Of a stretch of DNA of 64,000 bases, positions 49,646 to 52,390 are shown in pieces. How positions within the stretch are numbered: the first letter of the stretch is position 1; every line of letters starts with the position of its first letter. Location of the stretch: assembly GCA_009192285.1 (NCBI GenBank), contig CM018608.1:1072201-1136200 (forward strand), read 5' to 3'. The notes beneath the pieces were generated by a model. It made no database searches, had not been told where the DNA came from, and was given only the letters and a program-made list of their open reading frames with translations. The translations under genes and the position numbers were made by a program. This DNA is from Morchella semilibera (taxonomy: Eukaryota; Ascomycota; Pezizomycetes; Pezizales; Morchellaceae).

Positions 49646-50375
49646 ATGGAAGGCGCCGAACCCCCAACGCTCCCACCGCAAATGTTCACAACATCTGCGC
49701 AGCTCCTCGATCTGACCGATAGTGCGCACACCATCCTCATACTCGCCCGAACCAAAGTGAACTGACGGGTACAGAGAAGCTGCTGGTTGCGCTCCGAGAT
49801 GGGCGCAAGCTGATTGGTGTGTTGCGGTCGTGGGATCAGGTATGTTGCTGCTGCTTCTTCTCCGCTTTCTGTACAAGAAGAGGGAGTGTTGACTGAGTGG
49901 GTCTGTGTGCGCGATATAGTACGGTTTGTCTCAACTTTCGCTTCTGCGCTAGGTCGGGTGGTTGGATGCGATAGATAGACTGTGGGGAAGAAGCCCAGCT
50001 AACACATTCTCGCCCTCCCCGCGCAGCAAACCTCGTTCTCCAGAGCACCGTCGAACGTCTGTATGTGAATGATTCGTACTGCGACATCCCGCGCGGCGTC
50101 TTCATTGTCCGTGGCGAGAACGTCTTGTTGCTTGGCGAGATTGTACTCCCCACCACCCCCCTCCCCTGTATAGAGTATGGGAGGGTCAAATTCTGACATT
50201 ACGGGGTGGATAGGACCTTGATCGCGAGGACGACATACCCTTCCGGCAGGCGTCAGTCGAGGAGGTGTTTGCGGCGCAGAGACAGGCGGATGCGGAGAAG
50301 AAGCAGAGGGACAAGGTGCATAGGAAGAAGCTGCGGGCGCTGGGATTCGAGGATGAGGGCGAGGTGTTGGCTTAG
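49646..50375 (+). CDS. LSM1: U6 snRNA-associated Sm-like protein LSm1
   Basis: Subunit of the cytoplasmic Lsm1-7 ring that binds deadenylated mRNA 3' ends and promotes decapping in P-bodies. Five exons: 49646-49721, 49775-49839, a 4-nt exon 49920-49923, 50027-50142 and 50214-50375; 140 aa. Sm1 motif: LLDLTDKKLLVALRDGRKLI then GVLRSWDQYANLVLQSTVER; Sm2 motif: IPRGVFIVRGENVLLLGEI. A basic, helical C-terminal extension follows, typical of LSm1. The 4-nt exon TACG supplies the Tyr of DQYANLVL. It is flanked by ATATAG and GTTTGT, and both surrounding introns have CTGA/CTAAC branch sites. Without it, exons 2 and 4 cannot be joined in frame. Convergent with the kinase gene downstream. Confidence 0.9.
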
Positions 50376-50713: not shown

Positions 50714-51687
50714 CTAATTTTCCAACGCCCTCCTCCGCTCCACCGCATCGATAATGATCTCCACCGCCCACGGCAGGATCTCATTCATATGCATATCCGC
50801 CTCCAACGGCGCCACAATACCCTTCCTCTCTATGACCTCGGAGTCCAGGTTGCCATTGACATCCCCACCAACGAAGAGGTGCCTGTGCGCTTTCACCTGC
50901 AACTTGTTAGATTCAAACATCAATAAAGACCGGCTTGGGGGGGGGGGGGGGAAGAGGGGACAAACATAGTTTGGCCAGACGATCCTATCAAAGTACCCAG
51001 GGGGGTCCTCCCAGAAGCCTAGAGTTAGTTAGCTAGGTATATATATATATATGTATAGTATAGAACAAAATATAAAGAATTGGGACTACCCTCGATGGTG
51101 ACATATCCGGCCCTGGCCTCTCTCCTCTGTTTTGCCTATATATATATATAAAACATCCCTATTAGCACCCAGTCCCAAACCTTCAATCCCAAAATCCATC
51201 CAGACCACAAACCCACCTTCTCATACGGCGCCCTCAAAAACACCGCCAAATCCAGCGCCTCCAGCACCTCCTCATCATGGAACAGCAAAAAGCCATCCAC
51301 AACCGCCAGTCTCACCCCACCACCCAACGCCTCCCCCACCCTCGCCCTGCACCCCGCCACCACCTCCTCCCGCACCCCGCTCTCCCCAAGCGCGTTCTTA
51401 TCCTCCTTGCTCACCAGGTCCTCCGGCAGGCGCCCGCGCTCCCGCACATGCTTCAGCGCCTTCTTGAGCGCCGCGAAATCGATGGCCTCGACGCAGTCGT
51501 AGTCCACCTCCCCGTCCACCACGGGGAGGTCCGCTTCCGCCACAAAGAAGTCGTCTTGGTGCAGGATGAAGCTCGAGGGGAAGAGGCCCCGTAGGAGCCG
51601 TGACAGCGTCGTTTTGCCGCTGTTGGAGAGGCCTGAGAGCCCGACTATTAGGGGCGCGGGCGCGGGGGCGGGGGCGGGGATGGACAT
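50714..51687 (-). CDS. NRK1: Nicotinamide riboside kinase (NRK1 type)
   Basis: Phosphorylates nicotinamide riboside to nicotinamide mononucleotide in NAD+ salvage. Four exons: 51687-51217, 51135-51090 (46 nt), 51018-50966 (53 nt) and 50896-50714; 250 aa. P-loop GLSNSGKTT at about 19-27, followed by LHQDDFFVAEADLP (the catalytic/substrate DD pair), and the lid-side RREARAGYVTIEGFWEDPPG then YFDRIVWPNYV segment, which appears only when the short exons are spliced. VVDGFLLFHDEEV matches the Walker B region. The uridine kinase-like fold and these motifs match fungal Nrk1. The N-terminus has a short Pro-Ala repeat. The introns are unusually rich in C runs. The ATG at 51687 was chosen because the frame upstream is unrelated. 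Confidence 0.88.
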
Positions 51688-52390
51688 GGTAGGTAGGTAG
51701 GTAGCCCTGGTTAGATAAGGCAGGAGCGGGGATGTAGGAGGCGGGGTATGTGTAGCTGTAAGCTGGTTTGTGACAGGGCCAAAGATTCTTTTTTTTCTTC
51801 TATAATATATATTATTAACGTTGGTGATATGTACCTTATATAGCTGCAAAAGGTTCAACCACCCACAGTAGATAATAACAGCAGTACATATATGAGTTCT
51901 CAAACGACTTATCAAATGGCTGGTCAGTGTTCGAAGCCGACGTCACTTGGAGATTTACGGTTTTCAGGCTTAGTCTATCATTACCCCAGCAAGGCTCAGC
52001 TACGCGCTTTTCCCCTCATGTGGCTGGTATAGGTGCCAAGGATGGATAAGCTTTAAAGCCACACGGGTGGTGCCGTGCGAATACCTGGTAAATAGTAATT
52101 GCCGGAAAGGGTCAATTATTACATATAAGTACAAGGCATTCTGTACCATAAAGTCATAGCGGGCTTTTTGTCCATTTCTTTTGCTGGACCTGCATGAGGC
52201 TGCAGTACAACAGGATTGTTAATCATTGACCATCCGTAGTGATGAGTGGTAGCTACATGTAGTACATAGCAGATTTGTTCAAATATAGTGGTATAATAAC
52301 CTGTAAGTAAGTAGTAGTGACTTCAGTCTAAGGTTACCCCCCGATCAACCTGATAATCACACGCCCCTCTAGTCTCCCCAAAGTGGTGTC
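51688..52390. other. Intergenic, about 0.7 kb
   Basis: Promoter of the kinase gene (AT-rich near 51790-51840) and the 3' side of the oxygenase gene. TACATGTA at 52255. GTAG repeats at 51690-51703. No gene seen. Confidence 0.55.

Follow-up and report, generated by a model that had tools for sequence, protein, structure and literature searches.

A predicted four-nucleotide microexon in the LSM1 gene of Morchella semilibera

Known ultra-short exons and the LSM1 locus

Spliceosomal exons of only a few nucleotides have been described in humans and in plants. The human MPC1 gene is reported to contain a constitutive 4-nucleotide (nt) exon with the letters TACG (PMC9929638), and among plants a 4-nt exon of rice has been validated by RT-PCR, alongside 1-nt exons in APC11 and VPS55 (PMC8831610). 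Microexons occur in fungal protein-coding genes too, but the examples given in the respective reports are longer: exons as short as 6 bp in P450 genes of Phanerochaete chrysosporium (PMC1184071) and a 20-nt switch exon in Xlr2 of Trichoderma virens (PMC11121469), the latter report also citing tests of S. pombe microexons and a study of a cytochrome c gene. Among the matches listed in the open-licence literature on microexons or very small exons, above all those of fungi, we came across no exon of 4 nt or less in a fungal nuclear gene.

Here we analyse the LSM1 gene of Morchella semilibera, which, judging from its sequence, is very probably a single-copy gene whose five coding exons include a spliceosomal microexon of just 4 nt, TACG. 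This exon would supply the aromatic amino acid in the Sm1 motif (DQ-Y-ANLVL) together with the opening base of the Ala codon that follows. Exons this small have precedents in humans and plants; the fungal LSM1 case is new, and TACG is shorter than the fungal exons whose lengths are given above and possibly among the shortest in fungi. It resembles the MPC1 exon in its length, in its letters and in not being a multiple of three, but the constitutive MPC1 exon differs in having long flanking introns and an exon-definition region within the upstream 67 nt, whereas the LSM1 introns measure 80 and 103 nt (PMC9929638, for the features of MPC1 given there). Because the two genes are unrelated, their common letters are taken as coincidence. 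Like the plant microexons, TACG is an ultra-short spliceosomal exon of the kind overlooked by annotation; the plant exons rest on RNA-seq, RT-PCR or reporter constructs as presented in their reports (PMC8831610, PMC4674806), whereas the LSM1 exon is predicted from sequence. The Xlr2 exon is described as a regulated switch (PMC11121469), whereas inclusion of TACG is expected to be constitutive. The first-pass annotation of this DNA had described 4 nt as close to the smallest size that a spliced exon can have, which was overstated: 1-nt exons are described as proven in plants (PMC4674806, PMC8831610) and 2-bp exons as annotated in humans (PMC9929638).

LSM1 identity and the frame between exons 2 and 4

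All LSM1 coordinates are positions in the window, the 64,000-nt stretch of Morchella semilibera DNA that was analysed, from a genome of 56.8 Mb in 23 contigs whose genes and introns seem to be of the filamentous ascomycete type. The compact gene spans 730 bp of the forward strand (49646-50375, +), and its predicted protein of 140 residues contains an LSM domain (Pfam LSM, 58.9 bits). LSm1 proteins were the closest solved structures, occupying the top 4 places among 38 matched PDB sequences at 88.8 to 107.3 bits, with LSm8 next at 44.6; the protein is therefore one with an Sm fold and an LSM domain whose closest solved relative is LSM1. We take the four LSm1 entries to be those of S. pombe and S. 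cerevisiae. The predicted protein aligns without gaps at the microexon position, where S. pombe LSm1 reads DQFAN and S. cerevisiae LSm1 reads DQYAN; human LSM1 reads DQFAN at the same position. In Sm rings, the residue at this position stacks against a base of the RNA. As far as the consulted text of PMC7491322 goes, stacking is described generally and specifically for Lsm5 and Lsm8, and not for Lsm1.

The gene matched its own genome at one place, itself, and a second LSM1 copy or allele was not found there. Prokaryote and viral contigs were scanned, twice each, for stray fungal contigs carrying LSM1 relatives; the prokaryote genome contigs gave 121 pattern matches with a single protein and 41 with an alignment, and the viral contigs 12 and 30, of which 0 were confirmed in either collection. 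Downstream of LSM1, positions 51136-51942 of the minus strand hold an open frame that belongs to the PRK/uridine kinase family (Pfam 24.1 bits) and whose motifs resemble those of a nicotinamide riboside kinase.

The first-pass annotation had argued from the reading frame that an AG/TACG/GT arrangement closes a gap in LSM1, and direct reading of the letters bore this out. Exon 2 ends TGG GAT CAG (...LRSWDQ) at 49839 in phase 0 and is followed by GTATGT from 49840, whereas the next long exon opens CA AAC CTC (ANLVL) after a GCGCAG that ends at 50026. In between, ATATAG ends at 49919, TACG occupies 49920-49923 and GTTTGT begins at 49924; the proposed upstream and downstream intron signals are likewise in place (TTGACTGA at 49889-49896 and GCTAACAC at 49998-50005). 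The gap amounts to an aromatic codon plus one base, both of which the LSM1 alignment requires and exactly these TACG supplies, restoring the Y and A of DQ[FY]ANL. TACG is flanked by AG and GT with recognisable signals and both adjoining introns are of normal length, as in an ultra-short spliceosomal microexon (15 nt or less). The resulting structure is detailed in Table 1, together with a competing donor and a second candidate microexon.

Table 1. Features of LSM1 (window coordinates) and of the candidate SmB microexon (coordinates within stretch L041)
Feature	Position	Strand	Description	Basis
LSM1 exon 1	49646..49721	+	coding from ATG; MEGAEPPTLPPQMFTTSAQLLDLTD; ends phase 1	sequence, spliced alignment to LSM1, translation
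LSM1 intron 1	49722..49774	+	53 nt, GTGCGC..CTGAC..CAG	spliced alignment, splice scoring
LSM1 exon 2	49775..49839	+	KKLLVALRDGRKLIGVLRSWDQ; ends phase 0	sequence, spliced alignment
LSM1 intron 2a	49840..49919	+	80 nt; donor CAG/GTATGT; weak branch point TTGAC or CTGAG; acceptor ATATAG	splice scoring
Predicted microexon TACG	49920..49923	+	4 nt; Tyr codon plus first base of Ala codon	frame, peptide fit, splice scoring
LSM1 intron 2b	49924..50026	+	103 nt; donor ACG/GTTTGT; branch point GCTAACA; acceptor GCGCAG	splice scoring
Rival donor GTTGCT	49844..49849	+	would make one 183-nt intron, 49844-50026, and DQ-VS-NLVL	spliced alignment, splice scoring
LSM1 exon 4	50027..50142	+	ANLVLQSTVERLYVNDSYCDIPRGVFIVRGENVLLLGEI	sequence, spliced alignment
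LSM1 last intron	50143..50213	+	71 nt, GTACTC..CTGAC..TAG	spliced alignment, splice scoring
LSM1 exon 5 and stop codon	50214..50375	+		sequence, translation
SmB intron before microexon	L041:1701-1793		93 nt; preceded by ATG TCG AAA CAG CAA GGG AAA ATG	
SmB candidate microexon	L041:1794-1802 (contig C2, stretch from 2850500)		9 nt, in frame; GCGAACCTT (ANL)	spliced alignment
SmB intron after microexon	L041:1803-1879		77 nt; then ATC AAC TAT	

Direct joining of 49839 to 50027, with TACG skipped, shifts the frame and reaches a stop after 13 codons, and retention of either intron 2a or intron 2b also leads to an early stop. The Pfam LSM score falls from 58.9 bits with the Tyr to 47.3 for a form that lacks only this residue. 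Nine stop-free internal exons of 43 nt or less restore the frame between the fixed outer splice sites; TACG scored 15.3 against 7.4 for the runner-up and was the only one of the nine that reads Y-A. The uniqueness implied by the first-pass annotation nevertheless fails, as a frame-keeping donor sits 4 nt downstream of the exon 2 donor, though it scores far worse. Frame alone does not prove the microexon, because spliced alignment also allows the single 183-nt intron that starts at this donor (49844).

Splice scoring of competing structures

We scored 452 stop-free structures with one or two GT-AG introns and a middle exon of at most 70 nt, summing donor, acceptor, branch point, length and peptide fit into a joint score. 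The first training set comprised 29 introns from spliced alignments of 13 other Sm/LSM genes; removal of one first-round 201-nt SmB intron, which appeared to be two introns with a 9-nt exon between them, left 28. A larger set of 54 introns combined the first set with introns of LSM3, corrected SmB and six UBC/Rab genes and excluded introns at alignment tails, namely a 165-nt intron of L045, the retention of which would somewhat weaken the length argument against the 183-nt intron, and 97- and 99-nt introns of L050 that enclose a spurious 1-nt exon. An unsupervised intron set from 264 kb was dropped as noisy, with 34 matches against 11 in reversed sequence. The introns of this genome are loose in the sequence after the donor GT and have mostly GCTAAC- or GCTGAC-like branch points; the kept introns measured 49-143 nt overall and 49-112 nt in the first set minus the mis-modelled 201-nt case.

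The structure with TACG, which restores the aromatic residue and the Ala, ranked first of the 452 under both training sets; its lead over the 49844 structure was 15.5 bits in the 28-intron model and 19.0 bits in the 54-intron model. The larger set is partly circular, 26 of its 54 introns having been selected using splice scoring, and the argument therefore draws as well on the 15.5 bits obtained with 28 introns. The 49844 structure would break even only if exons of 15 nt or less were as rare as about 1 in 46,000 (28 introns) or about 1 in 510,000 (54 introns). Under the 28-intron model, a rarity penalty of 10 bits on such exons left the microexon structure a weight of 0.98 and one of 13.3 bits a weight of 0.81, with 0.18 for the 49844 structure; at 16.6 bits the order was reversed, with 0.66 for the 49844 structure and 0.31 for the microexon. 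The scoring approach can invent microexons, since it also gave the 1-nt exon in the tail of L050, which was rejected as an artefact at an alignment end.

Introns 2a and 2b are of ordinary lengths for the genome. In the 54-intron model, the donor of intron 2a (10.2 bits) scores at least as high as 52 of the 54 training donors and that of intron 2b (7.0 bits) at least as high as 33, and the branch point of intron 2b ties for best. The branch point of intron 2a is the weak point of the microexon structure: it scored below all 29 training branch points in the first model, and only 4 of 54 were as low in the second.

Chance expectation was estimated by placing 16,831 genomic stretches (overlapping, from both strands) or 40,000 Markov sequences between the fixed ends of the intron. 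The bare AG/T[AT][CT]G/GT motif arose in 87 of the genomic stretches and 357 of the Markov sequences, but a TWYG microexon whose splice signals equalled or surpassed the real ones arose in only 3 and 7, respectively. When a 4-nt exon with any sense codon was accepted, 50 of the 16,831 genomic stretches scored equally well. RNA folding of 49840-50026, which yields a long stem from the start of intron 2a to the end of intron 2b, was discarded as support, as 32 of 200 shuffled sequences folded equally well. We also observed a 15-nt perfect inverted match between 49851-49865 in intron 2a and 50292-50306 in the last exon of LSM1 (exon 5); matches of this length are ordinary: 14 of 259 stretches of the genome contain one, as do 23 of 2,000 Markov sequences.

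The main competitor is a gene with no microexon, in which the weak donor GTTGCT at 49844 is used and one intron removed, giving DQ-Val-Ser-NLVL; we consider this improbable. It keeps the frame with a single intron, and plain spliced alignment, in which any GT-AG intron and any exon length were permitted, favoured it at intron costs of 9, 12, 15 and 20 half-bits, choosing the microexon at 4 and 6. Its donor, at 2.1 to 2.6 bits, is weak but not impossible: 3 of the 54 training donors score no higher, and the donors of the first and last introns of LSM1 are weak as well (2.2 and 2.2 bits in one scoring, 4.6 and 3.5 in the 54-intron model). Using this donor would, however, mean bypassing a much stronger one immediately upstream and removing 183 nt, when none of the 54 training introns exceeds 143 nt, although the 165-nt intron modelled in the alignment tail of L045, outside the training set, suggests that longer introns may exist. 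The protein argues in the same direction. The aromatic residue followed by Ala-Asn of the Sm1 motif is present in the microexon structure and absent from the alternative (VSN), which has V-S where LSM1 has F/Y-A; Val occupies this position in 0 of the 14 other Sm/LSM proteins translated from the genome, and the alternative scores 3.3 to 5.2 bits worse against the four LSm1 structure sequences and 4.0 bits worse against Pfam LSM (54.9 versus 58.9). Nor is its preserved frame telling. The GT at 49844 is the +5/+6 GT of GTATGT itself, and 4 equals 1 modulo 3, so that such a coincidence is expected often, for any donor with G at +5 and T at +6; 18 of the 54 donors have a GT there.

Still less probable is a damaged or regulated non-functional transcript, with 49839 joined to another acceptor, such as the in-frame one at 50043 (losing YANLVLQ), or, with the frame shifted, to 50027. 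The 50043 variant stays in frame, relies on the strong GTATGT donor and achieves the top splice-only score among single-intron solutions (23.8 versus 16.8 for the 49844 intron), but it removes seven residues, among them A, N and L that are invariant across four aligned LSM1 sequences, and once peptide fit and length are included its weight does not exceed 0.0002 at any penalty tried. Against a non-functional product in general, the remainder of LSM1 is intact and is the sole match in the genome. Least probable of all is an assembly or sequencing error that hides a longer exon in the true genome, since a one-base indel cannot supply a codon plus a base; four bases would have to be lost exactly at the junction, and TACG has usable donors, branch points and acceptors on both sides.

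Proposed splicing order and short exons elsewhere in the genome

Short introns would naturally be spliced by intron definition. In the microexon structure, introns 2a and 2b would each be recognised in this way and removed sequentially, because the U1 and U2 machinery cannot occupy both sides of 4 nt simultaneously. Intron 2b, with its consensus branch point, would probably leave first and fuse TACG to exon 4, whereupon the weak acceptor of intron 2a would become the start of a normal exon. The expectation that 2b is probably removed before 2a is drawn by analogy with human cells, in which 58% of SRRM4-dependent microexons are reported to be strongly downstream-first; in the data of PMC10250204 that bear on this point, the 3′ splice sites upstream of this group were weaker (P 0.010), and its members tended to be shorter, though not significantly so (P 0.139). 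If the strong outer donor paired with the strong outer branch point, TACG would be skipped and a stop codon reached, and some skipped product bound for nonsense-mediated decay (NMD) is likely. As skipping and retention of either intron all give premature stops, inclusion of TACG should be constitutive, with errors cleared by NMD.

A second candidate microexon appeared in the 13 Sm/LSM genes, where one of 23 modelled internal exons (several of them doubtful, at alignment ends) measured 9 nt. With this exon SmB reads M-ANL-INYRMR, to which the closest solved Sm protein B, QGKM-AGY-INWRMR, aligns without gaps. With the human reference, the 9-nt structure was recovered at just one of four intron costs, the lowest; with the yeast reference ANL was kept at all four, the first donor lying 12 nt downstream at two of them and the first intron being absent at the other two. 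The exon is thus likely, but not proven, to be a second microexon of the genome. It shares with the LSM1 microexon the genome, the protein superfamily, short introns on both sides and a GTATGT donor; it differs in being 9 nt long and in frame, so that skipping would delete three residues without a frameshift, and in being less strongly supported than TACG. In LSM3 and six UBC/Rab genes, the short exons measured 24 to 37 nt and we found no credible exon under 15 nt.

The same gene models turned up two LSM2-like genes, L036 and L038 (contigs C15 and C19), one a typical LSM2 and the other diverged (MAFFSLFKTLIDHE...), which share a 28-nt exon and the positions of their first two introns. Contigs C9 and C10, and likewise C12 and C13, carry matching genes at nearly equal offsets with identical scores, and these pairs look like unmerged haplotypes or duplicated assembly.

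Exons of 4 nt probe the minimum exon size that the spliceosome can join. A speculative and rather doubtful extension is that this lineage has many unannotated microexons below 10 nt, Sm/LSM genes included, spliced by stepwise, downstream-first intron definition, and that skipping in LSM1 might act as a built-in NMD outlet that tunes this mRNA-decay factor. If the microexon is real, a 730-bp LSM1 gene in which introns of 80 and 103 nt enclose a 4-nt exon would make a clean model for studying the order in which introns are removed. Annotation must also be homology-aware, as a gene finder blind to microexons would call LSM1 broken or patch it with V-S in a conserved motif.
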